Shown piece by piece: positions 22,154-47,533 of a DNA stretch of 64,000 nucleotides. The notes under the pieces were generated by a model, which ran no database searches, was not told the DNA's origin, and saw only the letters and a program-made list of their open reading frames with translations. Source of the stretch: Martelella mediterranea DSM 17316 (GTDB lineage Bacteria > Pseudomonadota > Alphaproteobacteria > Rhizobiales > Rhizobiaceae); NCBI RefSeq assembly GCF_002043005.1, contig NZ_CP020331.1:1-64000 (forward strand), read 5' to 3'. The translations under genes and the position numbers were made by a program. Numbering within the stretch: the first letter of the stretch is position 1; every line of letters starts with the position of its first letter.

Positions 22154-22167
22154 ATATACTAGTGTAA
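22154..22167. promoter_or_regulatory. GntR-type operator copy (NRPS / flavoprotein 2 divergon)
   Basis: ATATACTAGTGTAA matches the shared palindrome TTAYAYTARTRTAA at 13 of 14 positions. It is centred between the divergent NRPS and flavoprotein 2 genes, 66 and 51 bases from their starts, so one site could control both. Confidence 0.7.
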
Positions 22168-22217
22168 TTTGGCTTTCAAGTTTATGCGAGTTTGCCGTTC
22201 AACGGGAGGATAGGCGG

Positions 22218-23732
22218 ATGAACGACGATATCGGCAATGACGGTTGGAATGCCGGGCCGGCTTCCTCGCGACAGGGTGCGGAGGCCCATGATGCGGCGGT
22301 GCGGACGGCGCTGGCGCTTCGGGGCGGTTTTCCGGATGACTGGGTCGTACCCCGGAAAGACATCGATCACGACGTCGTCATCGTCGGGGGCGGCCAATCG
22401 GGCGTGGCGATCGCCCTTGCGCTCAAGCGGGCGGGGATCACACGCGTGAGCGTCATCGACGCCGCGCGCAGCGGCGAGGAGGGGATTTGGCGCACGACGG
22501 CACGCATGAAATCTCTCCGCTCTCCCAAGCAGCTCCCCGGGCCGGAACTGGATGTGCCTGAAATGAGCTTCCGTGCCTGGTACGCCGCCCGCACCGGCGA
22601 TGAGGCCTATGATGCGCTGCAATCCATACCGCGGCTGGTATGGGCGCAGTATCTCGACTGGTTCAGGATCATCGCCGGCGTGACGGTGCGTTATCAAACG
22701 CGGCTTGATAGGGTCGAAAGCAGCGAAAACGGCCTGCGTCTCGCCTTGTCGGTTGAAGGCGAAGAACGCATCGAGACGTGTCGGAAAGTGGTTCTCGCCA
22801 CCGGCTTTCTGGGCGGCGGTTGCGCCCGCATTCCCGACTGGATCAAAAATGAGCTTCCGCCCGAACGGTATGCCCATGCCGATACCATGGTCGATTTCAC
22901 GGCCCTGAAGGGGCGCAGGCTGGCCGTTTTTGGCGCCGCCTCTTCGGCCTTCGACGCCGCTGCGGTTGCGCTTGAGACCGGCGTCCAATCGGTGCACATG
23001 TTCTGCCGGCAGGATGATCTGGAGCGCTATTCGCGCATGCGGGTTCTCTATTATCCAGGATCGGTCGAGCACTTTCCGCGCCTGCTTGACCGACACCGGT
23101 GGCACATCATGAATGCGCTCTGCTGCCGTGCCCAAGGCCCGGTACCAGAAACGGTGCGCCGCGCCACGCAGTTTCAGAACTTTCATCTTCATCTGGGCGC
23201 TCGCGATGCCCTGCCGGTGTTTGACGGTCGTTCGATCGTGATCGGGGACCTCGCATTCGACTATGTCATCGCGGGCACGGGCTATGGCGTTGATCTCGCC
23301 GCGCGACCGGAACTCGCCAGCGTTTCTGACGGGATTGCCTTGTGGGGGGATCGCTATCAGCCGCCCAAGGAGGAACGGAACGAGGAGCTCGCGCGGTATC
23401 CTTATCTCACACCGGGATTTGGCCTGACGGCGAAAGGGCCGGACCGGCGCGTCGAGGACATTCACCTCTTCAACGCGGCGGCGATGCTGAGTAACGGCCG
23501 CAATCCCGCGGAGATCAGCGGGTTCCGGCATGGGATACCGCAATTGGTGACGGCGATCGGCGCTGATCTTTACACGGCCGACGCCGAAATGCACGTGAAG
23601 CGGGCGTTGACGCCGGTCGAGCCTATCCTGAGCGCAGACGAATACAGGCACAGCATCTGGACCGAGCGCGCTCCGGCGGTCTCGCGGAAAGACCGCGCCA
23701 TCCAGCCCGTCCGGCAAGATGACGCCTGTTAA
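22218..23732 (+). CDS. FAD/NAD(P)-binding oxidoreductase, flavoprotein 2
   Basis: The 504-residue flavoprotein has FAD motif VVIVGGGQSGVAIALAL near residue 55 and a second Rossmann motif LAVFGAASSAFDAAAVAL near residue 235, where the usual GxGxxS is GAASS. The segment TTARMKSLRSPKQLPG, then FRAWYAARTGDEAYDAL, parallels flavoprotein 1 at 14533-16005, so the two are paralogues. It is transcribed divergently from the NRPS from a region with a shared operator, and is followed by a discrete carrier protein gene. It is a likely tailoring oxidase for a carrier-bound intermediate. The reaction is not established. Confidence 0.86.
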   Translation: MNDDIGNDGWNAGPASSRQGAEAHDAAVRTALALRGGFPDDWVVPRKDIDHDVVIVGGGQSGVAIALALKRAGITRVSVIDAARSGEEGIWRTTARMKSLRSPKQLPGPELDVPEMSFRAWYAARTGDEAYDALQSIPRLVWAQYLDWFRIIAGVTVRYQTRLDRVESSENGLRLALSVEGEERIETCRKVVLATGFLGGGCARIPDWIKNELPPERYAHADTMVDFTALKGRRLAVFGAASSAFDAAAVALETGVQSVHMFCRQDDLERYSRMRVLYYPGSVEHFPRLLDRHRWHIMNALCCRAQGPVPETVRRATQFQNFHLHLGARDALPVFDGRSIVIGDLAFDYVIAGTGYGVDLAARPELASVSDGIALWGDRYQPPKEERNEELARYPYLTPGFGLTAKGPDRRVEDIHLFNAAAMLSNGRNPAEISGFRHGIPQLVTAIGADLYTADAEMHVKRALTPVEPILSADEYRHSIWTERAPAVSRKDRAIQPVRQDDAC

Positions 23733-23821
23733 TATCAGAAGTCCGGAAAGGACGCGCTCCGGTTGTTCTCGGACGGGTGAGCCAAGGCTGGATTTTGTTT
23801 TAGATTCAAGAAAGGGAGACT

Positions 23822-24088
23822 ATGATGAGCGAACCAACGGTGATCGACGAAGCCGGCCTTCAGGCGCGGATACGCGACATCGCCGGCGTACTTCTGCGGG
23901 CCGAAACGCCTGCCGCCGAAGACCATTTTCTGGCGCTTGGGGGCGACTCCCTGCTCGCGACGGTCTTTGCCCGCAAGGTCGAGGTCGAATGCGGGCTGCG
24001 CCCGTCGCTTGAGGAGATATTCACGCTGTCCTTTGCCGAAATGGCCGAGGCGCTTGCGGGGCGCCAGGACGGCGCCGCGCGGCCGTAG
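23822..24088 (+). CDS. Discrete acyl/peptidyl carrier protein
   Basis: This 88-residue protein has the phosphopantetheine attachment motif FLALGGDSLLATVFARKVE, with Ser near residue 43. GGDSL with a following aliphatic pattern is typical of NRPS-type carriers. It lies downstream of flavoprotein 2 and presumably holds the substrate that the flavoprotein oxidises, or shuttles an acyl group to the NRPS. AGGGAG precedes two possible starts, ATG at 23822 and at 23825. Confidence 0.93.
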   Translation: MMSEPTVIDEAGLQARIRDIAGVLLRAETPAAEDHFLALGGDSLLATVFARKVEVECGLRPSLEEIFTLSFAEMAEALAGRQDGAARP

Positions 24089-24089
24089 C

Positions 24090-24109
24090 GGCCCGGCAGC
24101 AGCCGGGCC
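24090..24109. terminator. Hairpin between convergent carrier-protein and hydrolase genes
   Basis: GGCCCGGC and GCCGGGCC form a perfect 8-bp stem with the loop AGCA just after the carrier-protein stop. It has no T tract on either strand, so its role as a bidirectional terminator is likely but unproven. Confidence 0.45.
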
Positions 24110-24129
24110 TCAGTAACTGGCGGCCTTTA

Positions 24130-24969
24130 TCAGGTGTCGGCGCGTACCTGCTGGCGCTGGCCGCCGAGGCCCTCGATGCCGAGTTCGACCGTGTCGCCGG
24201 CTTTCAGATAGCGCGGCGGCTTCAGTCCCTGACCCACGCCGGGCGGAGTGCCGGTCGAAATGATGTCGCCCGGGTGCAGCGTCATGAAGTCGGACAGATA
24301 GCTCACCACATGGGCGACGCCGTAGACCATCGTGGCCGACGAGCCATCCTGCATCGTCTCGCCATTGACCTTCAGCCACATCTTCAGGTTCTGCGGGTCG
24401 GCAATCTCGTCGCGCGTGACCAGCCAGGGACCGACAGGGCCGAACGTGTCGCAGGACTTGCCCTTGGTCCACTGACCGGACCGCCGGGTCTGGAAGTCGC
24501 GCTCGGAGACGTCGTTGATCACGCAGTAGCCGGCAACGTGTTCGAGCGCCTCATCGCGGGAGACGTGCTTGGCGCACTTGCCGATGACGACGCCGAGTTC
24601 GACCTCCCAATCCGTCGCGGTGGAGTTGCGCGGGATGACGATGTCATCATTGGGCCCGACGATCGCCGATGTGGCCTTCATGAAGATCACCGGCTCCGGT
24701 GGTACCTCCATGCCGGATTCGGCGGCGTGGTCGGCGAAATTCAGCCCGATACAGATGAATTTGCCGGTGCCCGAAACACAGGGGCCGAGGCGTGATGCTG
24801 CCTCCGCCATGGGCAGCGCCTCGGGATCGAGGTCTTTCGTCCATGAAAGGTCTTCAAGCCATTTGCCGGCAATGTCATCGACGATCCCCGAAAGGTCGCG
24901 AATGTTGCCGTCCTTGTCGAGCAGCCCGGGGCGTTCCTCGCCAGCGGGTCCATAACGCAGCAGTTTCAA
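24130..24969 (-). CDS. Fumarylacetoacetate-hydrolase-fold enzyme, probable 2,4-diketo-3-deoxy-L-fuconate hydrolase
   Basis: The 279-residue FAH-fold protein shows the family core GKFICIGLNFADHAAE, EVELGVVIGK with the metal-binding acidic residues, YCVINDVSERDFQ and GDIISTGTPPGVG. Members of this length are ureidoglycolate-lyase-like hydrolases and the last enzyme of L-fucose oxidation, which splits 2,4-diketo-3-deoxy-L-fuconate to pyruvate and L-lactate. The start is TTG at 24969 with GCGGAG eight bases upstream. It follows the SDR gene after 17 bases in one operon. The substrate is inferred from the neighbours. Confidence 0.82.
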   Translation of the reverse strand: MKLLRYGPAGEERPGLLDKDGNIRDLSGIVDDIAGKWLEDLSWTKDLDPEALPMAEAASRLGPCVSGTGKFICIGLNFADHAAESGMEVPPEPVIFMKATSAIVGPNDDIVIPRNSTATDWEVELGVVIGKCAKHVSRDEALEHVAGYCVINDVSERDFQTRRSGQWTKGKSCDTFGPVGPWLVTRDEIADPQNLKMWLKVNGETMQDGSSATMVYGVAHVVSYLSDFMTLHPGDIISTGTPPGVGQGLKPPRYLKAGDTVELGIEGLGGQRQQVRADT

Positions 24970-24986
24970 TAGAGTATCTCCGCAAA

Positions 24987-25733
24987 TCAGTAGGTGGTTC
25001 GACCGCCGGAAAGATCGAAGGCGGCGGCAGTGGTGAAGCTGTTTTCGCGCGAAACCAGCCATGCGACCATCGCTGCGGCCTCGTCGACCTCCAATAGGCG
25101 GCCACGGGGGATGCGCGAGCGCATATATTCGATGTGCTCTTCGGTGAGCTGTTCGAGAATGCGGGTCTGTGCCGTCGCCGGCGTGATGCAGTTGACCGCA
25201 ATATCGTATTGCGCAAGCTCCTTGCCGAGCGACTTCGTCATCCCCATTACCGCGGCTTTCGAGGCGGAATAGGCGGCAGCGTTGGGGTTGCCTTCCTTGC
25301 CAGCGACGGAGGCGATATTGACGATCCGCCCGTAATTGCGTGCCTTCATGCCCGGTACCACCGCGCGGTTGACGTAGAAGGTGCCGTTGACATTGATGTC
25401 GATGACTTTCTTCCACATCTCGATGTCATAATTGTCGAGAGGTGCGGCGGCGCCCGCGATGCCTGCGGAATTGACGAGGATCGATATCTTGCCGCTTGCC
25501 TTCTCAGTGGCGGCAGCAGCGGCTTCCACCGATGACCAGTCCGAAATGTCCGCGATCTGGACGGTTGCCGCCTCGCCTATTTCGGCGCGAGCCTGTTCCA
25601 GCCTGTCTTTATCGATATCCCACAGGGTGACCGTCGCACCGGATGCGACGATGCGTCGGGCCATGGCGAAGCCCAGTCCCTGGGCGCCTCCGGTAACGAC
25701 GGCGTGTTCGCCTTCAAGGTCGATCTTGTTCAT
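24987..25733 (-). CDS. SDR oxidoreductase, probable 2-keto-3-deoxy-L-fuconate dehydrogenase
   Basis: A classical short-chain dehydrogenase of 248 residues. It has the nucleotide-binding motif TGGAQGLG near residue 15, NSAGIAG near residue 88, the catalytic Ser in NIASVAG and YSASK near residue 153. In the L-fucose oxidative pathway an SDR oxidises 2-keto-3-deoxy-L-fuconate to the diketo acid cleaved by the FAH-fold enzyme encoded next. The promoter region, shared with the aldo/keto reductase, contains a perfect operator copy. The substrate assignment is contextual. Confidence 0.82.
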   Translation of the reverse strand: MNKIDLEGEHAVVTGGAQGLGFAMARRIVASGATVTLWDIDKDRLEQARAEIGEAATVQIADISDWSSVEAAAAATEKASGKISILVNSAGIAGAAAPLDNYDIEMWKKVIDINVNGTFYVNRAVVPGMKARNYGRIVNIASVAGKEGNPNAAAYSASKAAVMGMTKSLGKELAQYDIAVNCITPATAQTRILEQLTEEHIEYMRSRIPRGRLLEVDEAAAMVAWLVSRENSFTTAAAFDLSGGRTTY

Positions 25734-25835
25734 AGGTTCGCTTCCTCCTCATTGTGTGCGCGACCGCCTCGAGACGCCATGTCCCGGCATTTTCCTGCAT
25801 GGCGGATACGCTGATATATCCCTTGAATAGTCTAA

Positions 25836-25849
25836 TTATATTAGTGTAA
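25836..25849. promoter_or_regulatory. GntR-type operator copy (SDR / aldo-keto reductase divergon)
   Basis: TTATATTAGTGTAA matches the shared consensus TTAYAYTARTRTAA at all 14 positions. It lies 52 bases before the aldo/keto reductase start and 102 bases before the SDR start on the other strand. Confidence 0.75.
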
Positions 25850-25901
25850 CAGTTTGGGCAAGGCCTGGTTTCACCGGGCGAATTTCGCAAGGGAGGCGGC
25901 T

Positions 25902-26927
25902 TTGAAGGCGACTGACGAACGGAAGGTGAGACGGACGGATCTTAACGTGACCAGGCTCGGCATGGGGTGCGCCTCGCTCGGCGGGCTGTTCGCCCCGGTG
26001 GATGCGCCGACATGTCTTGCGACGCTGCAGGCCGCCTGGGACTGCGGCATTCGTTATTTCGATGCCGCTCCGATGTACGGGCTCGGCCGGGCGGAACATA
26101 TGCTCGGCTATTTCCTGCGCGAGCAAGTCGGCGCGCGCTCGAGCATCGTCAGCACCAAGGTTGGGCGCCTGATGGCGCGGGACCGCCCTGGCCGGGAACT
26201 GCCGCCCGAGGCCGACAAGAACCCCCTCGATCCGGGCTGGCGGAATGGGCTGCCCCTTCGGGAAGTGTTCGACTATTCCTATGACGGCCTGATGCGCAGT
26301 TTCGACGACAGCCTCCAGCGCATGGGGCGAGCGGACGTTGATATCCTTTACGTGCACGATATCGGCAAGCTGACCCATGCCGAGCTTGCGGAGCATCACT
26401 GGAACGCATTGACCAAGGGCGGCGGCTTCCGTGCATTGTCCGATCTGCGTGACGCCGGCATCATCAAGGGCTTCGGTCTCGGCGTCAACGAGGCCGAGGT
26501 CGTGATGGCGGCCATGGATGAGGCGGAGCTGGATTGCACCCTGCTTGCAGGTCGCCATACCCTGCTCGACCAGAGCGCCGATGCTCTGCTCGAACGCGCC
26601 GCCCGCGAGAATATGGCAATCGTCATCGGCGGCGTATTCAACTCGGGCATTCTCGCCTCGGCAGCCGGCGGCAATCTCAAATTCGATTATCAGGATGCGC
26701 CCGAGGCGATCGTCAGAAAGGTCGGCGAGTTGCGGGCGGTGTGCGGCGAGTTCGACGTGCCGCTTGCCGCCGCGGCCATTCAGTATCCGTTCCGCCACGA
26801 AGCCGTCACCTCGGTGCTGATCGGCGCCAAGCACCCCGACAGGGTGAAGCAGAATGTCGACTGGTTCGAGATGACATTGCCGGAGGAGCTGTGGCAGACG
26901 CTCGCGGCGCGCGGATTGGCAGGGTAG
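25902..26927 (+). CDS. Aldo/keto reductase, probable L-fucose (D-threo-aldose) 1-dehydrogenase
   Basis: The 341-residue AKR has the catalytic tetrad region YFDAAPMYGLGRAEHMLG, Lys in SIVSTKVG and His in ILYVHDIGK. It resembles bacterial L-fucose / D-threo-aldose 1-dehydrogenases, which oxidise the free sugar to the lactone. The start is TTG at 25902, five bases after GGGAGG; an earlier in-frame TTG at 25854 would read through the promoter. It would perform the first oxidative step of the pathway encoded around it. Confidence 0.84.
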   Translation: MKATDERKVRRTDLNVTRLGMGCASLGGLFAPVDAPTCLATLQAAWDCGIRYFDAAPMYGLGRAEHMLGYFLREQVGARSSIVSTKVGRLMARDRPGRELPPEADKNPLDPGWRNGLPLREVFDYSYDGLMRSFDDSLQRMGRADVDILYVHDIGKLTHAELAEHHWNALTKGGGFRALSDLRDAGIIKGFGLGVNEAEVVMAAMDEAELDCTLLAGRHTLLDQSADALLERAARENMAIVIGGVFNSGILASAAGGNLKFDYQDAPEAIVRKVGELRAVCGEFDVPLAAAAIQYPFRHEAVTSVLIGAKHPDRVKQNVDWFEMTLPEELWQTLAARGLAG

Positions 26928-26948
26928 GGGCGGCTGAGGCGCCCCTAC
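26924..26948. terminator. Bidirectional hairpin overlapping two stop codons
   Basis: GTAGGGGC (26924-26931) pairs with GCCCCTAC (26941-26948). The stem contains the stop codons of both convergent genes (aldo/keto reductase and UxaA-type dehydratase). It lacks clear T tracts but is well placed to end both transcripts. Confidence 0.5.
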
Positions 26949-28456
26949 ATGGTGGCGCCCAGGCTCCAGGGCACGAATTCATTGTCGCCATAACCGAGCG
27001 TTTCCGATTTCGTCCTGCCGCCTGAGGCCACTCTGAGAATCTCGTTGAAGATCTCCTCGCCCTTGGCGGCGAGCGAGACGCCTTCCAGCACATCGCCGCA
27101 ATTGACGTCCATATCGTCGTTCATCTGTTCGTAGATGAAGGAGTTGGAGGCGAGCTTGATCGACGGCGTCGGCTTGCAGCCGAAGGCGGAGCCCCGGCCG
27201 GTGGTAAAGCAGAGCACATTGGCGCCGCCGGCCACCTGGCCGGTCGCCGAAACCGGATCGTATCCGGGGGTATCCATGAACACCAGCCCGCGCTCGCGGA
27301 TCGGCTCGGCATATTCGAGAACAGCGCGAAGATTGGTGCTGCCGCCCTTGGCCGCGGCGCCGAGCGATTTCTCGAGGATCGTCGTCAGGCCGCCGAGCTT
27401 GTTTCCTGGCGAGGGATTGTTGTTCATTTCCATATCGTGGCGGGCTGTGTAGTCTTCCCACCAGCGGATCCGCTCAATCAGCTTTTCCCCGACCTCGCGG
27501 TTTTCCGCGCGCCGCGTCAGAAGGTGTTCCGCACCGTAAATTTCGGGCGTTTCCGACAGAACGGCCGTGCCGCCATGGGCAACCAGCATATCGACCGCCG
27601 CGCCCAGTGCCGGATTTGCGCTGATGCCGGAATAGCCATCCGAGCCGCCGCATTGCAGCGCCAGAACGAGTTCGGAAACCGGTTGGGTGGTCCGCCGCGC
27701 GGCATTGACGGTCGGCAGCATGTCGATGATCGCCTTGACGCCGGCATCGACGGTTTTGCGCGTGCCCCCGGTTTCCTGGATGGTCATGGTGCGGAAGGTC
27801 TCGCTCTCCGTGATATCGTAGGATTTCATCCAGCGCGGAATCTGGAACGCCTCGCAACCCAGTCCCACCATCAGCACGCCGCCGACATTCGGGTTGGTTG
27901 CAAAGCCCCATTGGGTGCGCTTGAGCACGTCGTAGGCCGGCCCCTTCACATCGATGCCACAGCCCGTGCCGTGGACGAGCGAGATCACGCCGTCGACATT
28001 GGGATACTCATCGAGCACGCCGGACCGGTTGATTTCATCGGCTATGAAACGGGCGACGCTCGCCGAGCAGTTCACCGAAGTCAGCGTCGCGATGTAATTG
28101 CGGGTTCCAACCCTGCCGTTGGCCCTCCGAAATCCCTCGAAGGTCGCGCGGGCGCTGTCATCGACAAAGCGTGTGGGATGCGTATTGGTGCCGAATTCAT
28201 AACTGCGCTCGAAGGAATGGAGGTAGACATTGTGCTCGTGAACCCAGGCGCCGGGGACGATATCCTCGCGTGCAAAGCCGATGGTCTGACCGTATTTCAC
28301 GATCGGCTCGTCCTTGCCGATCTTGCGTATGGCCATCTTGTGGCCGCGGGGAATATTGGCCAGCGCCGTAACGGCATGGGCCTCCTCTCCCTTCTTGAGC
28401 GGGTCCACGACCAGCAGGATATTGTCTGTGTCGGATAGTTTTATGAAACGTGTCAT
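26945..28456 (-). CDS. UxaA/GarD-family sugar-acid dehydratase, candidate L-fuconate dehydratase
   Basis: The 503-residue protein belongs to the altronate/galactarate dehydratase family: an N-terminal SAF domain (residues about 1-100) followed by the large dehydratase domain with RVGTRNYIATLTSVNCS, HGTGCGIDVKG, VGLGCEAFQIP, ALQCGGSDGYSGISANP and NNNPSPGNKLGG. In this setting it is the only candidate for dehydrating L-fuconate (or a related 6-deoxy sugar acid) to the 2-keto-3-deoxy acid, since no enolase-type fuconate dehydratase is present. A 13-of-14 operator copy lies 50 bases upstream. Altronate or galactarate are alternative substrates. Confidence 0.87.
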   Translation of the reverse strand: MTRFIKLSDTDNILLVVDPLKKGEEAHAVTALANIPRGHKMAIRKIGKDEPIVKYGQTIGFAREDIVPGAWVHEHNVYLHSFERSYEFGTNTHPTRFVDDSARATFEGFRRANGRVGTRNYIATLTSVNCSASVARFIADEINRSGVLDEYPNVDGVISLVHGTGCGIDVKGPAYDVLKRTQWGFATNPNVGGVLMVGLGCEAFQIPRWMKSYDITESETFRTMTIQETGGTRKTVDAGVKAIIDMLPTVNAARRTTQPVSELVLALQCGGSDGYSGISANPALGAAVDMLVAHGGTAVLSETPEIYGAEHLLTRRAENREVGEKLIERIRWWEDYTARHDMEMNNNPSPGNKLGGLTTILEKSLGAAAKGGSTNLRAVLEYAEPIRERGLVFMDTPGYDPVSATGQVAGGANVLCFTTGRGSAFGCKPTPSIKLASNSFIYEQMNDDMDVNCGDVLEGVSLAAKGEEIFNEILRVASGGRTKSETLGYGDNEFVPWSLGATM

Positions 28457-28505
28457 TTGCCAACTCTGAAAGACCGCGGATTCGTCATCCGGTAAAATCG
28501 AATTT

Positions 28506-28519
28506 GTATACTAATATAA
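28506..28519. promoter_or_regulatory. GntR-type operator copy (dehydratase promoter)
   Basis: GTATACTAATATAA matches the shared consensus TTAYAYTARTRTAA at 13 of 14 positions, 50 bases before the dehydratase start. Confidence 0.7.
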
Positions 28520-28736
28520 CAATGGCATCCTAAGCAAGTGCGAGCCTTGTCGCATCAGCAAATCACGCCGAGATACAACGGAGAGGAGCGGATGCGGAGT
28601 CCGCTGGCGCGGTGGGCGGAATGGCGCGCCGGAGCATTCTCCGCTGATGTGGAGGTTATCTATCTGTTTGTTTTTGCGCCTTTAGCGGAGGGGGGCGATT
28701 CAGCCTGACTGCACCGCCGAAAGCCTGCGTACCGGT

Positions 28737-29066
28737 TCAGGGGAGGTGAAAGACTTCTTCCAGGGACGCCCACCACTCGCCGGAGGCGCGGGTAGCAAGC
28801 GGCGCCTGCATCGGGCCGCACAGTTCCCACCATTTCTTCATGGCGGGCGATCCGGCCATTCGGGCCGCATCGGCGGCGAAGTCGTTGCCATGATATTCCC
28901 AGTAGGCGAACAGAAGGTTCTCGGGCTCGCGCAGGAAGATCGAATAGTTGCGGATATTGGCCTTGCCGAGCAAGTCGAGAATTTCCGGCCAGACGGCGGC
29001 GTGGACGCGCTTGTATTCCGCGATCGCCTCGGGTTTCACGCCGATGCAGTGAGCCATTCTTTGCAT
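28737..29066 (-). CDS. L-rhamnose/L-fucose mutarotase family protein
   Basis: This 109-residue protein of the L-rhamnose mutarotase family interconverts sugar anomers. The conserved start RMAHCIGVKPEAIAEYKRVHAAVWPEIL, NIRNYSIFLRE and WWASLEEVFHL are intact. It is encoded 26 bases after the GntR regulator in the same transcript. In the fucose pathway the mutarotase supplies the anomer used by the dehydrogenase. Confidence 0.92.
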   Translation of the reverse strand: MQRMAHCIGVKPEAIAEYKRVHAAVWPEILDLLGKANIRNYSIFLREPENLLFAYWEYHGNDFAADAARMAGSPAMKKWWELCGPMQAPLATRASGEWWASLEEVFHLP

Positions 29067-29092: not shown

Positions 29093-29767
29093 TCAGTCGG
29101 TAAGATCGCCCGCGACTTCCAGCGTATTGAGGAGCGATGTATTGAGGTGGCTCTCCATGGCGCGCGCCGCGCCCTCCGCATCGCTACGGGAGAGCGCCTC
29201 CAGAATGGCCTCGTGCTGCTCGATCGTCTGGGCGCCATAGCCCGGTCTCGGGATCGCCAGATAGCGGCCGCGGTCCATCTGGGCCTTGGAAATATCCACC
29301 GCGCGCCAGATCGACGGGAAACCGCTAATTTCGGCAATGGTGCGGTGAAAAACATCGTCGAGCTGGATAGCGTTGGCATATCGGCCGCGGGAAATCGCCA
29401 GCCGGTGGGCGGCGATATTGTCTTCCAGCAGTTCGGCGGTGGCGGGCGTGAAATTGGCTGCGGCGTGGCGCGCGCTTTCCATCTCGAGCGCGCGGCGGAT
29501 CACATAGGCCTCTTCCAGGTCCTTGCGACTGATCGGCGCGACATAGGTGCCGGTCTGGGCGAGGATCTTCACCATCCCTTCATCGCTGATGCGCTTCACG
29601 GCTTCGCGCACCGGTGTGCGCGATACGCCGAGTGCTTCGGCAATCGCGATCTCGTTGATCGGCTCGCCCGGCTTCAGCTTTCCGCCCACGATCATGGTGC
29701 GGATCATCTGATATATCTGGTCCCTCAAAGGCAGGGATCGGTTCAATGTCGAGGGATCGAATTCCAT
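29093..29767 (-). CDS. FCD-type GntR transcriptional regulator, candidate master regulator of the operator family
   Basis: The 224-residue protein has an N-terminal winged helix (GEPINEIAIAEALGVSRTPVREAVKRISDEGMV, residues about 33-66) and a C-terminal FCD ligand-binding domain with the metal-binding pattern DDVFHRTIAE and HEAILEAL...HLNTSL. It is encoded with the mutarotase and divergent from the sugar importer; its own promoter region holds the densest cluster of the TTAYAYTARTRTAA palindrome. It is therefore the best candidate to bind all copies, with a sugar acid or lactone as likely ligand. It may repress, since the sites overlap TATACT/TATATT-like -10 sequences. Confidence 0.93.
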   Translation of the reverse strand: MEFDPSTLNRSLPLRDQIYQMIRTMIVGGKLKPGEPINEIAIAEALGVSRTPVREAVKRISDEGMVKILAQTGTYVAPISRKDLEEAYVIRRALEMESARHAAANFTPATAELLEDNIAAHRLAISRGRYANAIQLDDVFHRTIAEISGFPSIWRAVDISKAQMDRGRYLAIPRPGYGAQTIEQHEAILEALSRSDAEGAARAMESHLNTSLLNTLEVAGDLTD

Positions 29768-30106
29768 AGGTTCGTTCCAGTTTGCGGCGCGCCTACGGCC
29801 ATTATTATATTAGCATGTCAAACGCTTACCGGCATGTCAAATATTATCTGGACTGTCGAACCCCGGTCTCGGCGCGGCCTCGGCTTTTCGGCAGAATGTC
29901 TTCCAAGGATGCTTGTCAGTCCTATTATATTAGTGTAATAGACTGCGGAAATAGCTTCTCGTAATTGCTTGACCGCCATCCCTTTAGGGCGAGACCGGGA
30001 TTCGGGTGAGAGAGATCGCGCTTGAATAAGCTATTATACTAACATAACGTGAGGGTGGGCATTGTTTGGAGGCGATGTCCCTTTCCAGAGGAGGAAGCAG
30101 GCCGAT
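29768..30106. promoter_or_regulatory. GntR / sugar-importer divergent control region with three operator-like sites
   Basis: The 339-bp gap contains TTATATTAGTGTAA (29925-29938, perfect), TTATACTAACATAA (30034-30047, one mismatch, 59 bases before the ATPase start) and TTATATTAGCATGT (29807-29820, 11 of 14, 39 bases before the GntR start). The last overlaps the first copy of a direct repeat GCATGTCAAA at 29815-29824, repeated at 29834-29843, 19 bases apart. This looks like autoregulation plus control of the importer. Confidence 0.7.
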
Positions 30107-34510: not shown

Positions 34511-34518
34511 TAATGACC

Positions 34519-34544
34519 GCCGGCCCGGTGCATGCCGGGCCGGC
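34519..34544 (+). terminator. Strong hairpin after the sugar-importer operon
   Basis: GCCGGCCCGG and CCGGGCCGGC form a perfect 10-bp stem with the loop TGCATG, followed by TTCCCCTT. It probably stops or attenuates most transcription before the monooxygenase gene, with read-through possible. Confidence 0.6.
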
Positions 34545-34619
34545 TTCCCCTTGATGGGGCGGCGCCCATGCGATTGGGAGGCCTGACGATCGATTGCGCA
34601 ACTCCGCAGGAGGGCAAGG

Positions 34620-37383: not shown

Positions 37384-37408
37384 CCGGGCGAGATTGACCC
37401 GCCCGGTC
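37382..37408. terminator. Hairpin between convergent KS0 and PKS genes
   Basis: GACCGGGCG (37382-37390) pairs with CGCCCGGTC (37400-37408) in the 29-base gap between the two convergent biosynthetic genes. It is probably a shared terminator, without clear T tracts. Confidence 0.5.
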
Positions 37409-37412
37409 GGCC

Positions 37413-40400
37413 TCAAACCTTGGCAGCCCTCTGGTTTTCGATCTCCTCGGCCATGCTTTCGATGGTTGGATGGCGGATAAACCAGCGCGGGGTGATCCCG
37501 ACGCCGAACAGGCGGGTGAGTTGCGAGGAAAGCTTGACGGCCATGATCGAATCCACCCCCATGCTTGCAAATCGGGCCGTCCGGTCGACCTCGTCCGAAC
37601 GCAGCATGGACGCAATCTCAGCGGTCAGAATGTCGGCGACGGTTTCCGGCTGCGATTGGGCGGTCGGGCCGGCATCAACCGCGACGTCCTGCGCCATGAA
37701 TGCCGCGAGTTCCGCAATGGACTGGTGGCGCAGCAGTTCCTTCGGGGTCAGCCGCCGCCCGAGCGCCTTGTCAACGAGGACGATCAGCCGGATCGCCATC
37801 ACGGAATCAAGACCGATCGCAGAGAAGCGCGTCTGTGGGTCGAGGTCGTTGATCTTCAGAAGGTCGCCGATGATGGCGGTCAATGTGGTTTCCAGCGGGG
37901 CGGATCGTTCCGAAACCGAAATTGCCGGACGCGCGCGAGGCGTATCGCCGGTATCCGGCTGTGCCGGGCTCCCGGCTTTTGCCGGAGGTCTCTTGGTCTC
38001 GGCTTCGGGCATGCTTGCCGGTGCGATGGCGGGTCCCCGGAGGAGCGCGTTTTCACGGTCGAGTGCAGTCCAAATCTCGTTGCTCCGGCCGTAGAGCATG
38101 ATCGTTTCCGGCGAGTCCTCAGCCATCGCGGACCGGAACGCCTGGAGGCCCACATCAAGGTCGAGGAAGGCAAAGCCCAGTGAGGCAAACCATGTGTCGA
38201 ATTCCGGGGTGACGTATCTGTCCCATTTCCAGCGCGACCAGCAGATCGCCTTGCTCAGGCCACGACGGCGGCCCGCCGCGACTTCGCCGGCACGCCAGGC
38301 GGCGAAACTGTTCTGGAACGCGCAGCCATAGGCATAGTCCGATCCTCCGGCAAGCCCAAGCGAAGCCAGCGAGGAGAAGGCCACGAAGAAATCGAGATCG
38401 AGCGCCGCCGTCGCCCGGTCGAGATTGATCGTTCCTTGAACCTTCGCGGCCGAAACTTTGTCGAAAGTGTCCCAGTTCTTGCGGAAAATATAGGCGTCGT
38501 CATGGGCGGTGACCAGATTGACGATTCCGTCGATCTTCCCATGTTCTGTCAGGATCTGCCCGATGAGCTCGTCCGTCCGGGCGCCATCGGTGATGTCGCA
38601 CTGCCTGTAAAGCGCACGCCCGCGCATGCCGGAGGAAAGGGTCGCGATCGCGGCGTTCTGGTTGGCTTCGGCCACCGATCGGCCACAGGCGATGAAAGTC
38701 GCGTCAATGTCCTTGCCGAGCCTTGCGATGAGACGCCGTCCAAGCTCGCCGGCGCCACCGGGAACAAGATAGACCCCGCCATCGCGGAACCAGACCGGGG
38801 CCGGTGTCCTTTCGGCTTCGCCCTCGCTGAGAACGCGCGTCGTCCGGTCCGGATTGAAGCGCAGACAGGCCGGCACGGCAGGCGGTCTGGATGTGATCTC
38901 GGCAAGCGTCAGCGACTGCCAGTCGGACGCAGCCTCCGTCCCGAAGAACAGAGTGTGGAGCCGCAGATGCGCATTCTCGAGAAAGGCGGATTTCGCAAAG
39001 GCGGTGATCGCGTCGATGGCCGGGCGGCGCGCAAAGTCTTCCAAGGCTACATGGAATATATCGATCTCGCGGCCGAACGCGTCTTCCATCAGAGCGCTGG
39101 CGAGGCAGAAGGCCAGTTCCGGCTCCGTGCGGGACGGGTCCGGCGCGTCCGATGACGGAAGCACGATCACCGCCTCGGGTTCGGCACCCGAGCATTGCCA
39201 GACGTCGAGCGACGGCCGGAAGCAATGTTCCTCTTCCGAGAAGACTGACGAGATGACCGTCGCCGTTCCAGCCAACGCTCTTTCGAAGGCGGGCATATGG
39301 GCGGCAATCTGTTCCTCGCTCCGGCCGATCATCCACAGGCATTTGCTGCTCCAGATGCGCGGCTCCGCCTGGGCGGGCCTCGTGCGCCAGCCGGGTCGCA
39401 GGCCGATGAGTTCGGGCTCGGAAGCGCTGGCGACCTCTTCGAGGCGCGGCTCGAACCAGCAGCTTCGGCTCCGCCAGGGCACGATTGGCAGGGAAACGCG
39501 GCGTGCCTGATCGATCGCCGGCCAGTTTACATGCCCGCCCTCAAGCCAGACTGCGACGTGGTCGGGCAGCGACAGTCTTCGAGCGGTTGCCGCGTCGGCT
39601 ATGATGGCGTCGTCGGTCGCAATGCCCGATATGATGGCGTTGAGCCGATCGACAAGGGTCTCGGTATCGGCAACCTTGATGACCACGCGCACCGGCCGGC
39701 TTTCTCCGCGCTGCTGCAGCGTGAAGGCGATGTCCTTCAGAAGGTGCGCCGGGTCGGTTTGCGCCTTAAGTGCAGGAATGGCTTCGGCGATGGCTGCCGC
39801 ATGGTCCTGAAGATCGGCCTCGGTGAAGGCCGTCAGTGGAATGAACATGGGATCGACGCTGGCCGGTGAACGGCCGGACGGCAGGTGTTGCGCCAGCGCG
39901 ACCGATGCATTGGCCCCTCCGAAGCCGAAGGAATTCACGAGCGCGGCAAGCGGGGCATCGGGCGCAGGCCACGGCCCGGTCTCAGCCTGAAGGCTGAGCC
40001 CGTCCTCGAACACGATATGGGGATTGAGCGTTTTGAAATTCGAGAGACCCGGCAGCCTGCGGTCCCGTATCGCCATGGCCACGTTGATGACGCCCGCGAC
40101 GCCCGCCGCCGGCTCCAGATGGCCGATATTGGTCTTGACCGATCCGACGGTGCAAGGGGAAGGCGGCAGATGCCGATCCGCGCGAACCTGCCGGAAGGCG
40201 CTCTTGACCGCCTCGATTTCGATCGGGTCGCCGAGTTCCGTGCCGGTTCCGTGCATTTCGACGTAGGAAATATCGTTCGGCGTCAGCCCCGCATCTTCCA
40301 TGGCGCTGATCATCAGCCTCGCCTGCGCGCGGCTGTTGGGCGCGGTGAGCGATGCGGCCTTGCCGCCGTGATTGACGGCGCTGCCCTTGATCACGGCGTA

Positions 40401-41470
40401 GACGCGGTCGTGGTCGCGCTCGGCATCGGCGAGCGTCTTGAGCAGCAGCACGCCGACGCCTTCTCCCCGCACATAGCCGTCAGCCGCGGCATCGAAGGTG
40501 CGGCATTGGCCCGTTGGCGACAGGACGCCCAACTGTCGGCCCATGATGAACATGTCAGGAGTCAGCAGCAGGTTGACCCCGCCGGCCACAGCCATCGTGC
40601 ATTCGCCGCGGCGTATGGCCTGCACGGCGCTGTGAATGGCAACCAGGCTGCTCGAGCAGGCCGTGTCGATGGCCGCGCTCGGGCCATGGACGTCCAGCAA
40701 AAACGAGACGCGATTGGCGATCATGGCATGGGCATTGCCGGTGCAGGCCTGTGCACTGGTCAGGCCGCGCTGATCGATAAGCCTCTGGTAATCCTGAAAC
40801 TGGACACCGGCGAAGACGCCGACCGATTGACCGGCGAGCGCACGGGGATCGTGGCCAGCATCCCATATTGCTTCCCAGGCCCCAGTCAGAAACAGGCGGT
40901 GCTGGGGATCCATGAATTCCGCCTCGTATTGCGAAATTCCGAAGAAATCAGGCGCGAACTGGTCTTCGCCTTCGATGAAGGCCCCCCATTTGACATCCGT
41001 GCGACCGCTTTCGCTGAAAGGGTCGCCCTCAATGCTTTTCCAGTTCCAGCGCCGACGCGGTATTTCCGTGATGCTGTTCCGTGTTGCGATCTGGTTTTTC
41101 CAGAACTGTTCCTTTGAGTGCGCGCCCGGCAAACGGCATGAAATCCCCACAATGGCAATATCGTGGCCTTCGTGGTCGCCGTGGTGCCGCGTGTCTTTTT
41201 CAGGAGTCGGGGCCTTGGAAGGGTTATCGCTCGCTGCCCAGTGCTCGTCGAGATGTTCGGCAAGCTCGTTCAGGGTCGGGAAGGTGAAGAGCGTTATGGT
41301 GTCGACGGGGTGGCCGAAACTGTCGGAGAGCCGGGCGGCGAAGAGTTTGAGCGATGCCGAATCGAAACCCAGATTGCCCAGGGTCTCATCGACATCGATC
41401 CCGGTTTCGCTGATTTCGAGGATTGCGGCGGCGAGACCCTTCAGGGTCGGGAGGGTCGGGGTCGCGGATC

Positions 41471-41474
<4 letters not shown>
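37413..41474 (-). CDS. Polyketide synthase, ACP-KS-KR-ACP-ACP
   Basis: A 1353-residue AT-less PKS. An N-terminal ACP (NLGFDSASLK near residue 37) is followed by a KS with full triad (DTACSSSLVAIH, EMHGTGTELGDPIE, NIGHLEPAAG), a KS linker ending VSLPIVPWRSRSCWFEP, and a KR (VPGGAGELG; SSLASLGLAGGSDYAYGC). Two C-terminal ACPs have IGLDSVMA and MGVDSIMA. In the KR the Asn of YxxxN is replaced, so activity is uncertain. It would extend an acyl chain with malonate from the discrete AT and reduce the beta-keto group before hand-over to the NRPS. The start overlaps the upstream KS stop (ATGA). Confidence 0.95.
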
Positions 41475-43356
<1,882 letters not shown>

Positions 43357-43357
<1 letters not shown>

Positions 43358-45438
43358 CAGCTCTGGCTTTCCCGGCTGTTCGCGCCGAGCGCGGCCCTCA
43401 GGCTCGCGATCATGTCCTGGCGCGACGTGCCGGCGGGCTGTGGGTCCGGCGGGGCCTCGGCGGGTGCGGCCAGATGGGCGGCGAGCCGGGCAGGTGTCGG
43501 ATGTTCCCAGATCACGGTCGGATCGAGCGAGAGCGAAAACCTCCGGTTCAGCGCCGCCACGAACTGCGCCGCCAGAACCGAATCCAGGCCGATCGCGCCG
43601 AAACTGTCGCCAGTGCGCCGCTCCTTTTCTCCGACCAGCTTTTGCAACTCCTCCATCAGGCTTTGCAGTAGTTCACCCGCCTGCAAGCTGGCGTAGCTTG
43701 CTGTTCGGGGACGGGTCTGCGTCTCCAGCGGCTTGATATCGCCGGCCAGATAAAGGTCGCGGGTCAGGCGGCGCTGGACCTTTCCGCTTGTGGTCTTGGG
43801 AAGAGAGGCAGGCGGGATGAACACCACGTCCGCCAGGGTGATATCATGCTCCTGATAGACCGCTTCGCGCACGATGCTTTCGAGTTCGGCGAAATCCGTC
43901 GAGTGGCGGGCGGTGCGCTCGACCTCGTGCACCACCACGACCGCATCGCCGTTTTCGGTGTCGATTGCGAAGGCCGCGCCATTCACGGTGCGGAAGGCCG
44001 GGTGGCAGTCCTTGGTGGTCAGTTCGATGTCCTGCGGATAGATGTTGCGTCCCCGCAGGATGATGACATCCTTCAGCCGTCCGGCAATGAACAGCTCGCG
44101 GGCGTGCAGCACGCCGAGGTCGCCGGTGCGCAGGAAGCCGGAGCGGTTTGTCCCGCTCGGGCTCTGGCCGAATGTCTTGCCGCTTTCTTCGGGCGCCCGC
44201 CAGTATCCTGATGTGATGCTGCCGCCGCGAACCCAGACCTCGCCGATCTCGCCTTCTGCGCAGGGGGAAAGAGTCTCGGGGTCGACGATCGCGATTTCCA
44301 TGTCGTCGGCCGGGCGGCCCGAACTCACCAGCTCGACGGCGTCGCCGTCTTCCTGCGCCCTGACAAACCGGCCGGCGGCGAGGGCGCGCCTGTCGGCGGA
44401 CACGATGACGGGCGGCTCGCCGACCCGCGACGTGGTGCTGAGCAGTGTCGCTTCCGCCAGCCCATAGGCCGGGAAGAACGCATCCGCGGCAAAGCCGTAG
44501 GGACCGAAGCGTTCCTGGAAGCTGTGCAGCGTCGAGGCGTGGATCGGTTCCGCGGCATTGAGGGCATTGCGCCACGTCCGCAGATCGACGCCGTCCATCT
44601 GGTCGTCGCGGATCGCCTTGACGCAGAGCCTGTACCCGAAATCAGAGGACATGCTGGTTGTGGCGCGATAGCGGCTGATGGCCTGAAGCCAGAACGCCGG
44701 ATTGCCGCTGAATGAGGCCGGGCTCATCATATAGCAGGTGGCGCCGACAAAAAGGGTCTGGATGACGATGCCGATCAGGCCGAGATCGTGAAACAGCGGC
44801 AGCCAGCTTACGATCACGGTATCCTCATCATGGCCCATATGTCGCGCCGTGAGGTCTGCATTGTGCATCAGGTTGCCGTGGCTGACCATGACCCCCTTTG
44901 GGTTGCTGGTCGAGCCGGAGGTATATTGCAGAAAGGCGATGTCGGTGGATTTCGGCAAGGCCGCGTCCCAGGCCTCCGCCGCGTCCTCCTCGATCAGGTC
45001 CTCGATGCAGAGGAATTCCAGCGCGCTGATCGAAGGGTAGGGGCGGGACCAGGCCATGATCTTGTCGAAGAGCGCGCGACAGGTGAGGATCAGTCGCGGT
45101 CGGCAATCCGCCACGATCGCCTCGAATGTCATCCAGCTGCGCTTGTTGGGCTTCGGCGTGTGGGCCGGAACGGCGATCGCGCCGCCGAACAGGGTTCCGA
45201 GAAACCCGATGACGAATTCGCTGCCCTGCGGAAACAGCAGCAGCACGCGCTCGCCGACGGCTTGCCTCCGCTGGAGCGCGCCGCCGATGCGCCTGCATGC
45301 CTCATCGAGGTGGGCGTAGCTGATGTGGCCCTGCTCTTCCGTACCGTTTCGGAGGTTCACATAGGCGATCTTCGGCCCCAGCCGTTGGGCGTTGTCTCGA
45401 ACCACGTGAACGACGGATTCGGGTAGGGTGGTGGGCAT
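43357..45438 (-). CDS. Fatty acyl-AMP ligase fused to an acyl carrier domain
   Basis: The 693-residue protein has a FAAL adenylation domain (IAFLQYTSGSTSNPKGVMVSHGNL near residue 170, VSWLPLFHDLGLIG near residue 210, AYGLAEATLLS, LRTGDLGVLH, GRLKDVIILRGRNIYPQDIE) and a C-terminal carrier (AIGLDSVLAAQF near residue 625). It activates a fatty acid as acyl-AMP and loads it on its own carrier to start the assembly line. GGAGGAG precedes the ATG, and an operator copy lies 74 bases upstream. It is the first gene of the FAAL-KS-PKS operon. Confidence 0.95.
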
Positions 45439-45511
45439 GCGATCTCCTCCTGCGGCGCTTGCCGGTATCCCTCCTCCGGGCCGGCGGCCTCGCGATGCTG
45501 CGCTCAGCCAA

Positions 45512-45525
45512 TAACACTAATATAA
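45512..45525. promoter_or_regulatory. GntR-type operator copy (FAAL/PKS operon promoter)
   Basis: TAACACTAATATAA matches the shared consensus TTAYAYTARTRTAA at 13 of 14 positions and overlaps TATAAT-like sequence. It lies 74 bases before the FAAL start, directly linking the PKS operon to the sugar regulon. Confidence 0.72.
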
Positions 45526-45627
45526 TAGTATTATTCTCGATGTTGTAAATGCGTGGCTGTCCTCAACAGGTGTCACAGCCATGATTCTGATACGTGACGA
45601 ACGCGCGACGCCGCGCGCGTATACCTT

Positions 45628-46491
45628 TCACGCCGACAGGGCGGGGTCGCTTGGGGCGGGGAAGGCCGGAAGGCCGTAGAAACGGACTGCATTGCCGCCA
45701 AAAATTCCCGGATCGCGGGCGAGATGCGCGGGCAGGGCCGCCATCGTCGCGGCCAGCACGTCGGCGTAGTTTCCCGCCGGACGGCAGACAGGCCAGTCGC
45801 TGCCAAAGATGAGGCGTTGCGGGCCGAAAACGTCGAGCGCGTGATTGATGGCGGGACTGAGGTCGTCCACGCTCCACGCCGTGGCGTCGGCTTCGGTGAT
45901 CAGTCCGGAAAGCTTGCAGAAGAGCGTGTCGAATTCCGCCAGACGGGCAAGGCCGTCCTTCCAGAAGCCGAGGTCTCCGGAAGCGATCGGCGGCTTGGCC
46001 AAATGGTCGATAACCGCGCGTAGGCCCGGCACCAGGCGAAGAGTCTCCGCGACATGCGGAAGGTGGAGCGCGAGGACGAGAAAATCGAACGTAAGGTCCT
46101 GCTCCGCCAATTTCTCCAGCGCCTTGAGGACGCGCGGGCGGACGATCCAGGCATCATCGGCGATATCCTGAAGCATCGGCCGCAGGCCCAGAAATTTCGG
46201 ACGTTCGGCATATCTGGAAAGCGTGCTCGCAAACTGCGCGTCCTCCATATCAAGCCAGCCGACAACTCCGGCCACGAAATCCGTCTTTTCGGCGATATCC
46301 AGCAGGAAATCGGTCTCCGCCTGCGTCGGCGCGGCCTGGATCAGAACCGTGCGCCGGATGCCGAACCGCGAAAGAAGCGGGGCGAGGTCGCAGACGAGGT
46401 AATCCCGCTGCAGGATTTCCGGGGCGCCGGGCATCCAGGGATAGTCGCCGCGCGCGCGGTTCCAGAGATGATGATGCGCATCGACAAGCAT
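45628..46491 (-). CDS. COG3618-type amidohydrolase, probable L-fucono-lactonase
   Basis: The 287-residue metal-dependent hydrolase starts with the metal-binding DAHHHLW and has VIDHLAKPPI, CKLSGLITEAD and FGSDWPVCRPAG. Family members include L-fucono-1,5-lactonase and L-rhamnono-lactonase, which open the lactone made by the sugar dehydrogenase. This is the step otherwise missing from the fucose-type genes at 24-29 kb, but the gene lies 17 kb away beyond the PKS operon, downstream of a glycosyltransferase gene whose promoter holds the same operator. Confidence 0.87.
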   Translation of the reverse strand: MLVDAHHHLWNRARGDYPWMPGAPEILQRDYLVCDLAPLLSRFGIRRTVLIQAAPTQAETDFLLDIAEKTDFVAGVVGWLDMEDAQFASTLSRYAERPKFLGLRPMLQDIADDAWIVRPRVLKALEKLAEQDLTFDFLVLALHLPHVAETLRLVPGLRAVIDHLAKPPIASGDLGFWKDGLARLAEFDTLFCKLSGLITEADATAWSVDDLSPAINHALDVFGPQRLIFGSDWPVCRPAGNYADVLAATMAALPAHLARDPGIFGGNAVRFYGLPAFPAPSDPALSA

Positions 46492-46554
46492 GACGTGTCC
46501 GCAAGGTTCGAAAGGCGGCGGCCGGTCGCAGGGCTTCTACGCCGGCCGCGCGTT

Positions 46555-47442
46555 TCAGGTCGTAAGACGTTGATCGGCGAGGGCGTCGTTGAGGTCGAAG
46601 GACTGAACGTCGATCAGCATTTCGGTCTCCATGCGCTGGAACTTGCCATGGAGATAGATCTTGTTCGGACGCGATGAGGCCGAATTGACTTCGTGGGACT
46701 TGCCGTGCGGGATATGGATCGAGCTTGCGTCCCGGCTGAGCTTGAACTCGACGCCCGAAAGGTAAAGGGCGAGGGCGAAATCCAGATCCTCGGCACCCCA
46801 GGTCGCGTAGTTCTCGTCATACAGGAAGCGTTCGCCCAGCGTTTCGCGACGAACCGAGAGGTTGCAGCCCCAGGATATCGCCCATGGCGCGGGCAGGTCC
46901 ATCAGGTTTTCGCCGAACTTGCGATAGGTCCGTTCGCGCATGTCGGCGAACCGGTCTTCAGCCCGGAAACGTTCAAGCATGGCTTCGACATTATCGAGAT
47001 CTAGGGTCTCCAATGCCCGACCCAGCGCTTCGTCTTCATTGCCGGTATTGCTGAAGCCGAAAACATAGCCGATGACGAGGGCGGACGGCGACGAATGCGC
47101 CTCGACATGCGCGCGCACGCAGCCCTGCGAAACAACCACCCCGCAGTCGAGAAGGATGCAAATCTCGCCTTCCGCCAGTTCAAGACCGAGGTTGCGCGCC
47201 CGCGCCAGGCGGTAGCCCTTGTCCTTTTGGTAGATATAGCGGATCTGGCAATCCGCAGTGTCAATGAAGGTGCGCACCAGTTCATAGGTGGCGTCCGACG
47301 AGCCGTCATCGACAATGATGATCTCGAAAGCGTCTGCCGGCATGTCGCTGGCCACAAGGGACTGAAGGGTCTTGGCGAGCATCTTCTCCCTGTTGTAGGT
47401 CGGAACGACGACTGTCGCTTTGAACCTGGTGTTGTTGCGCAT
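46555..47442 (-). CDS. Family 2 glycosyltransferase
   Basis: The 295-residue GT-A protein has VVVPTYNREKMLAKTLQSL at the start, IIVDDGSSDATYEL near residue 50, the metal-binding position LLDCG (usual DxD altered), and a C-terminal galactosyltransferase-type segment YATWGAEDLDFALAL. No membrane helices are visible, so it is probably cytosolic. It is the first gene of an operon with the lactonase and carries the shared operator 78 bases upstream. It may glycosylate the cluster product or a surface polymer; donor and acceptor are unknown. Confidence 0.87.
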   Translation of the reverse strand: MRNNTRFKATVVVPTYNREKMLAKTLQSLVASDMPADAFEIIIVDDGSSDATYELVRTFIDTADCQIRYIYQKDKGYRLARARNLGLELAEGEICILLDCGVVVSQGCVRAHVEAHSSPSALVIGYVFGFSNTGNEDEALGRALETLDLDNVEAMLERFRAEDRFADMRERTYRKFGENLMDLPAPWAISWGCNLSVRRETLGERFLYDENYATWGAEDLDFALALYLSGVEFKLSRDASSIHIPHGKSHEVNSASSRPNKIYLHGKFQRMETEMLIDVQSFDLNDALADQRLTT

Positions 47443-47519
47443 GACTTGTGCCCCTCCCCGAGCGCTATTCCATAGCAAGACGACGCGGTGACCTTTTCAC
47501 GTCTAACTTGAAAATCCTA

Positions 47520-47533
47520 ATATATTAATGTAA
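47520..47533. promoter_or_regulatory. GntR-type operator copy (glycosyltransferase/lactonase operon)
   Basis: ATATATTAATGTAA matches the shared consensus TTAYAYTARTRTAA at 13 of 14 positions, 78 bases before the glycosyltransferase start. Confidence 0.7.

Follow-up and report, generated by a model that had tools for sequence, protein, structure and literature searches.

A single 14-bp palindrome, TTAYAYTARTRTAA, stands in front of both a set of sugar uptake and oxidation genes and the genes of a nonribosomal peptide synthetase (NRPS) and trans-acyltransferase (trans-AT) polyketide synthase (PKS) assembly line in Martelella mediterranea DSM 17316. The 64,000-nucleotide stretch analyzed here (termed the window) comprises bases 1-64000 of C2, a molecule of 593,079 bases in a 5.69 Mb genome; because the window starts with repA, repB, and repC, C2 is a repABC replicon. 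From the arrangement of this DNA, we consider it likely that a GntR-family repressor acting at the palindrome controls sugar uptake, sugar oxidation, and the assembly line together, and that a sugar acid releases it. The original prediction had placed the sugar regulon and the NRPS/PKS genes under one operator, a claim that is borne out by the shared sites, their rarity, and their conservation, and that is partly supported as a whole.

Seven operator sites occur in the window, each at the position where a 13- or 14-base match had been predicted: two are perfect (25836 and 29925), and five have one mismatch (22154, 28506, 30034, 45512, and 47520). An eighth copy at 22146, with two mismatches, overlaps the site at 22154. 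Shuffled versions of the window (n = 100, ≤2 mismatches) contained a mean of 0.02 matches, vs. eight in the real sequence. The overlapping pair (22146-22167) lies between the divergent promoters of the NRPS and a flavoprotein, and the perfect copy at 25836-25849 between those of a short-chain dehydrogenase/reductase (SDR) and an aldo-keto reductase (AKR). The remaining sites are located before a UxaA-type dehydratase (28506-28519), between gntR and the operon of a sugar importer (29925-29938), a second time before that operon (30034-30047), before the fatty acyl-AMP ligase (FAAL) and PKS genes (45512-45525), and before a glycosyltransferase and a lactonase (47520-47533; the same in Martelella limonii). 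All seven are intergenic and, by the gene calls of this analysis, 41-168 bases upstream of start codons; the predicted promoter position stands, the predicted distance having been 50-160 bases. The AKR is exceptional, with a listed open reading frame (ORF) that begins 4 bases past operator 25836. Because four of the five assembly-line relatives described below align to the AKR only from residue 11-14, its true start is probably farther downstream.

At ≤1 mismatch, the palindrome is found at seven places in the whole genome, all of them in the window, and a control pattern (the operator read backwards) is found at none. Equally good matches elsewhere had been named beforehand as grounds for rejecting a shared operator, and the whole-genome scan at this threshold gave none. 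At ≤2 mismatches there are 21 places in the genome (the seven, the copy at 22146, and 13 further ones) vs. 32 for the reversed control; since the control reaches the higher count, the 13 further places are background.

The link between operator and assembly line is conserved in related genomes. Among 297 genomes of the family, orthologs of the ketosynthase (KS) encoded at 41471-43357 occur at 58-96% identity in M. limonii NBRC 109441 (G276; the closest relative found, 96%), Nitratireductor B36 (G136), and two species of the genus g69 (G152 and G068), while the next best match reaches 44%. A fifth relative, Mesorhizobium sp. B2-3-4 (G297), comes from a separate named collection, and these five together with the window make up the six assembly-line loci. 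Despite reshuffled gene order, all six have the operator before the NRPS/flavoprotein (0-1 mismatches), the FAAL or KS (0-1), the importer (0-1), the SDR/AKR (0), and the UxaA-type dehydratase (1-2). In loci without a FAAL match ahead of the KS, the operator stands before the KS. The second importer operator is kept in five of the six loci at ≤2 mismatches and is absent from Mesorhizobium B2-3-4. Loss of the sites in orthologous loci, also named in advance as damaging, was not seen at the main promoters of the five relatives. Of the 40 sites at ≤1 mismatch that the six genomes contain in total, 36 fall inside the locus (window 7/7, G276 7/7, G136 6/7, G152 6/8, G068 6/6, G297 4/5), and the four outside it compare with a summed control count of 11. 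The operator also extends to differently placed genes: in g69, where the acyltransferase (AT) and phosphopantetheinyl transferase (PPTase) genes are positioned otherwise than in Martelella, an operator with one mismatch lies immediately before the AT, and a divergent operator with two mismatches is common to the PPTase and the lactonase. In Mesorhizobium B2-3-4, the glycosyltransferase is inside the unit of the SDR and the FAA-hydrolase-family (FAH) gene, behind the perfect SDR/AKR operator.

Conservation at these promoters is concentrated on the operator itself. In ungapped, operator-anchored alignments of four rows (Martelella, Nitratireductor, Mesorhizobium, and g69a, with the near-duplicates M. 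limonii and g69b omitted), 12 of the 14 operator columns are invariant at the NRPS promoter, where other 14-column windows have a mean of 0.8 and a maximum of 6, and 13 of 14 are invariant at the FAAL/KS promoter (other windows: mean 1.2, maximum 4). The operators are AT-rich within a window of 62% G+C, a composition that would favor a chance resemblance among AT-rich promoter sequences. This explanation has a negligible probability and was rejected given the shuffled windows, the genome-wide count of 7/7 in the locus with a control of zero, and the footprint.

Many of the operators also hold a regular position relative to CTTG, with which the typical -35 box of alphaproteobacteria begins. Of the 55 sites in ten loci, 33 have a CTTG at -14 to -12, and 10, all of them divergent promoters, have one on each side. 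Counted over -25 to -6, the occurrences are most frequent at -13 (33) and -14 (10). A second group of 11 falls at -18/-19, 9 of them at UxaA promoters; the second importer operator of the window has its CTTG at -13. This phase is a new observation. With a 16-18 base spacer, the predicted -10 box falls on or just beyond the far end of the operator, and a bound protein would thus cover the promoter, as expected of a repressor. Because the best automatic -10 match gives mixed spacings, only the CTTG phase is claimed.

A second connection between the sugar and biosynthetic genes, likewise a new observation, runs through the importer operon. Directly behind the importer binding-protein gene, and in the same direction, each of the six assembly-line loci has a luciferase-like monooxygenase and a separate KS (34620-37383, + strand, in the window). 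No match to this pair was found in the fetched stretches of four sugar loci that stand alone. The arrangement points to co-transcription of the monooxygenase and KS with the importer.

The candidate regulator is encoded at 29093-29767 (- strand) and is a presumed repressor of the FCD subfamily of GntR proteins (PF00392, 64.8 bits; PF07729, 93.4 bits; both above cut-off). At E ≤ 1e-55, this GntR is present in 17 of the 297 family genomes (window included), and all 17 loci were inspected. Five of the 17 carry the assembly line. Stand-alone loci, which have the GntR, the sugar genes, and the operator without the assembly line, were found in G285, G178, and G173, and on a plasmid of Shinella PSBB067; the latter is from a plasmid collection in which four records have the GntR at E ≤ 1e-40, one of which was opened. 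All four fetched stretches include the SDR, AKR, UxaA, RhaM, and importer genes, three include the lactonase, and one includes the FAH gene. Sites at ≤1 mismatch in the locus vs. the genome number 2/3 in G285, 2/5 in G178, and 2/2 in G173, and a search of these three genomes with the assembly-line KS gave no match at E ≤ 1e-60. Because four loci have the sugar genes, GntR, and operator without an assembly line, the sugar control looks older. Near the Shinella locus there is a gene annotated as L-fuconate dehydratase.

More distant GntR proteins (57-62%) occur in G134, G272, G151, G067, and G213, in different neighborhoods; in four of these five genomes the variant GTATATTAGTGTAC, or a sequence one base off, is near an ABC operon, and the fifth has a weak match. 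In G208 (GntR about 51%), a one-mismatch site precedes gntR on a 12-kb contig. Three loci (L124-L126; G217, G073, and G271) have neither the sugar locus nor clear operators and hold an orphan GntR gene. A matrix scan also detected a degenerate operator, TTATATTAGCATGT (29805-29818), 37 bases before gntR in the window, which is possibly a weak site for its self-control. This newly noted site has the same location in each of the six assembly-line loci and also in G178, and is weakest in g69b and G178; a degenerate site is likewise kept before gntR in two of the three orphan genomes. Overall, the GntR accompanies the operator in 6/6 assembly-line and 4/4 stand-alone loci, an association that, strongly though not without exceptions, suggests that this GntR binds the palindrome.

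The sugar genes encode the complete set of protein classes for a non-phosphorylative route: importer, 1-dehydrogenase, lactonase, dehydratase, SDR, and diketo-acid hydrolase are all present in the window. The ATP-binding cassette (ABC) importer (ATPase, two permeases, and binding protein) is encoded at 30107-34510 (+). The AKR (25854-26927, +, start uncertain; PF00248) is a probable sugar 1-dehydrogenase with a weak match to L-galactose dehydrogenases, and the amidohydrolase-type lactonase (45628-46491, -; PF04909) matches the NCBIfam L-fucono-1,5-lactonase at 216 bits (cut-off 400), with the solved relative 4dlf, named Amidohydrolase 2. These are joined by a UxaA/galactarate-type sugar-acid dehydratase (26945-28456, -; PF04295, PF20629), the SDR dehydrogenase of the pathway (24987-25733, -; PF00106), and a RhaM-like mutarotase (28737-29066, -; NCBIfam L-rhamnose mutarotase, 56 bits, cut-off 99.6). 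The set also includes an FAA-hydrolase-family 2,4-diketo-3-deoxy-sugar-acid hydrolase (24130-24975, -, start approximate, the listed ORF extending to 25416; PF01557), for which the best solved relative is the L-2,4-diketo-3-deoxyrhamnonate hydrolase 8gsr and the NCBIfam rhamnonate-type hydrolase score is 415 of 500 bits. The route presumably ends in pyruvate and lactate. A 6-deoxy sugar, as had been predicted, is a likely substrate but is not proven, given that the NCBIfam matches of the six scanned pathway proteins (the SDR was not among them) are all below the curated cut-offs. Our best guess from these matches is L-fucose, with L-rhamnose and L-galactose as alternatives. An oxidative L-fucose route has been described (PMC5507952).

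Under the mechanism that we favor, the palindrome would be the operator of the FCD-type GntR protein, and the importer, the sugar oxidation genes, and the NRPS/trans-AT PKS would form one regulon with the operator inside its promoters. When the sugar is lacking, the repressor would block these promoters. A 6-deoxy sugar, most likely L-fucose, would be imported and oxidized to an acid intermediate; an aldonate or 2-keto-3-deoxy-aldonate would then bind the FCD domain and release the repressor, such that the cell would begin to take up the sugar, break it down, and make the natural product at the same time. An acid from this pathway is proposed as the inducer because FCD domains commonly bind carboxylic acids. 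The sugar half would be the older regulon, to which the assembly line may have been added by way of copies of this operator ahead of its main operons and, additionally, through placement of the monooxygenase and KS behind the importer. Any role of the sugar as a signal from an alga or a host is conjectural.

Several observations weigh against such joint control. Matches at ≤1 mismatch occur in 141 of the 297 family genomes (at least one each), often in smaller number than the control; because single chance matches are so common in the family, only clusters of sites count, and a lone site is meaningless. In the window, the AT and PPTase genes have no operator, and, as the original prediction had noted, neither this pair nor the LIV operon has a copy at ≤2 mismatches. 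No operator lies directly upstream of the AT or the lactonase in Mesorhizobium B2-3-4, and the one before the glycosyltransferase and lactonase of Nitratireductor is degenerate. Finally, in G073, G217, and G271 (one genus, GntR 81-84% identical), there is no site near gntR at ≤2 mismatches and none genome-wide at ≤1 mismatch, and this sugar locus is not present. The existence of close homologs without the operator in these three genomes would fit a palindrome that belongs to another regulator, with the neighboring GntR as a passenger. We regard this as very improbable in view of the pairing of GntR and operator in all six assembly-line and all four stand-alone loci, the GTATATTAGTGTAC-like variants near another ABC operon in four of the five genomes with distant GntR proteins (the fifth having a weak match), and the degenerate operator copy before gntR.

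The promoters themselves supply further difficulties. CTTG is missing at -14 to -12 from 22 of the 55 sites; UxaA operators have it mostly at -18/-19, and FAAL/KS operators have none in phase. A promoter scan with the standard sigma-70 consensus detected nothing in 29700-37500. Between the binding-protein gene and the monooxygenase there is a G+C-rich 9-bp hairpin (34520-34543) with no T-run, and read-through from importer to monooxygenase may consequently be partial; no terminator was listed in this gap by the terminator scan, and the hairpin may act as an attenuator that adjusts importer expression relative to that of the biosynthetic genes. The same regulator and operator could also work in the opposite sense, with the GntR activating the assembly line, or with the sugar switching synthesis off (a famine signal). 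GntR proteins can act as activators or repressors, the operator evidence gives no sign, and the FAAL/KS sites do not have the CTTG phase found at the importer sites. The spacing of operator and CTTG at the NRPS/flavoprotein promoter, however, matches that at the SDR/AKR and importer promoters on at least one side in 6/6 loci, and the monooxygenase and KS directly behind the importer in every one of these loci also argue for a common sense of control. We therefore judge the opposite sense unlikely and retain repression relieved by the sugar as the working model.

The assembly line comprises a FAAL-ACP protein (ACP, acyl carrier protein), three KS proteins, a ketoreductase (KR), carriers, a separate AT, and an NRPS with a thioesterase, along with a tailoring set of one FAD and one FMN monooxygenase and a glycosyltransferase. 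None of the three KS proteins has an Acyl_transf_1 domain and the AT is a separate protein, which identifies the PKS as a trans-AT system. The loading protein FAAL-ACP (43357-45438), the KS (41471-43357), and a KS-KR-ACP PKS (37413-41675) are all on the - strand. The one-module NRPS (18054-22088, -) has a condensation-family domain, adenylation, carrier, and thioesterase. Its adenylation pocket resembles, as we take it, the cysteine code; its relatives by source names include pyochelin and epothilone synthetases, and its solved relatives bacillamide and dihydroaeruginoic acid synthetases. A motif search of the condensation domain found no HHxxxDG, and no DxxxxD at the usual place. Divergent from the NRPS is a FAD-dependent oxidoreductase/monooxygenase (22218-23732, +). 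The luciferase-like monooxygenase behind the importer belongs to the MupA/Atu3671 family (426 bits, cut-off 244), and the glycosyltransferase (46555-47478, -; PF00535) to family 2. The trans-AT (16334-17200, -; PF00698) and the PPTase (17215-18000, +; PF01648) had been predicted as a pair; both genes are present, but the PPTase is on the + strand and divergent from the AT. The minus-strand ORF at 17098-18054 was rejected as the PPTase, having no Pfam match and being antisense to the real + strand gene.

The two g69 loci (L075 and L078) have no FAAL match ahead of the KS and carry an extra PKS gene instead; loading and product probably differ in g69, although the operator is kept. The last KS of G136 (C2:19788-21524) and the KS of G152 (C3:36354-38177) each show one in-frame TGA in the query match, possibly due to decay, an alignment edge, or sequencing error. 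A search of the genus around G152 recovered the KS in two of four genomes. An order-level search for the NRPS yielded one of 397 genomes, the window's own (the other assembly-line genomes were presumably not drawn), which says that this NRPS is rare, not absent. Further close NRPS relatives were found in Salinarimonas chemoclinalis (57%), Mesorhizobium sp. NPDC059054 (60%), and Nitratireductor aquibiodomus (51% over 86%), and the plasmid collection contained FAAL-like matches in 83 records, all at <60% identity.

The packing of sugar and biosynthetic genes could mean that the two gene sets are linked by more than co-regulation and that the sugar enzymes supply the assembly line as well, with the sugar or a derived acid entering the product via the FAAL or the glycosyltransferase. 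The lactonase gene is grouped with that of the glycosyltransferase in the window, with the AT in Mesorhizobium B2-3-4, and stands beside the PPTase in g69; the monooxygenase and KS follow the importer. Against this, catabolism suffices to account for the sugar genes, which occur without the assembly line in four loci, and the fetched stretches of the two g69 loci have no glycosyltransferase match; such feeding seems to us improbable. A broader version, also rather unlikely, is a sugar-to-signal device in which the imported 6-deoxy sugar would be inducer, fuel, and building block at once, and the product would both report and exploit encounters with a fucose-rich host surface. The FAAL, PKS, cysteine-type NRPS, and glycosyltransferase would in that case build the sugar or a sugar-derived acid into the product.

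An integrase, a DUF1403 protein, and an ScpB-like segregation protein (4739-7613) are beside repABC, and a LIV-type importer and an Asp/Glu racemase (8421-14026) adjoin a second FAD oxidoreductase (14533-16005), which is Pfam-like the one at 22218 and has no operator. This second oxidoreductase had no separate match in the fetched M. limonii stretch. On the other side, an SBF-like transporter, an Opp-type peptide importer, and a gamma-glutamyltranspeptidase (48552-56907), also without an operator, form a block that is kept beside the cluster in M. limonii (96-100%); the Nitratireductor stretch gave no match to the block as a whole.

Many natural-product clusters are silent in culture for want of a known trigger. 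Here, sequence evidence on its own names L-fucose, or a close 6-deoxy sugar, as the probable trigger of an uncharacterized trans-AT PKS/NRPS. If the proposed control is correct, sugar-cued regulation would be extended from its Streptomyces precedents to a Rhizobiaceae-type family, and the stand-alone sugar loci would make visible the likely starting state for a catabolic regulon capturing a biosynthetic cluster. Among the literature matches listed (titles and beginnings of abstracts, few subscription journals), none named the operator, the cluster, or a link between a sugar operator and NRPS/PKS genes in Rhizobiaceae.

CebR of Streptomyces scabies is a LacI-family protein. It represses sugar import and catabolism, binds upstream of and within the thaxtomin NRPS cluster, is released by the imported sugar, and acts in part through the cluster activator TxtR (PMC4890002). 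As in that system, the operator of a sugar regulon stands before NRPS genes here; unlike CebR, the regulator is an FCD-type GntR protein, a site stands at each of the main operons, and the sugar and assembly-line genes are interleaved. No counterpart of TxtR, i.e., a cluster activator, turned up among the scanned ORFs. DasR of Streptomyces coelicolor, a GntR protein of the HutC subfamily (PMC4918961), responds to N-acetylglucosamine, acts at antibiotic genes, is released after the sugar is supplied, and has 66-72 bound sites before induction (PMC4398421). Both would be nutrient regulators of the GntR family with sites at biosynthetic genes, whereas the present regulator is FCD-type, with seven sites in one locus on a repABC replicon of an alphaproteobacterium. 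The loci with predicted FucR sites for non-phosphorylative L-fucose use (PMC5507952) share with the window the genes of an oxidative sugar pathway (in the window probably for L-fucose), an ABC importer, and a local regulator; their dehydratase and importer families vary, and the portion of that paper available mentions no assembly line. One feature that defines CebR- and DasR-type control, the operator of a sugar regulon before biosynthetic genes, is thus found in the window, and the idea is the same as in those two systems, with the differences that the regulator is an FCD-type GntR protein, that the sites are confined to a single locus, that operators stand directly at the main assembly-line operons, that the sugar and biosynthetic genes are interleaved, and that stand-alone relatives of the sugar locus exist.

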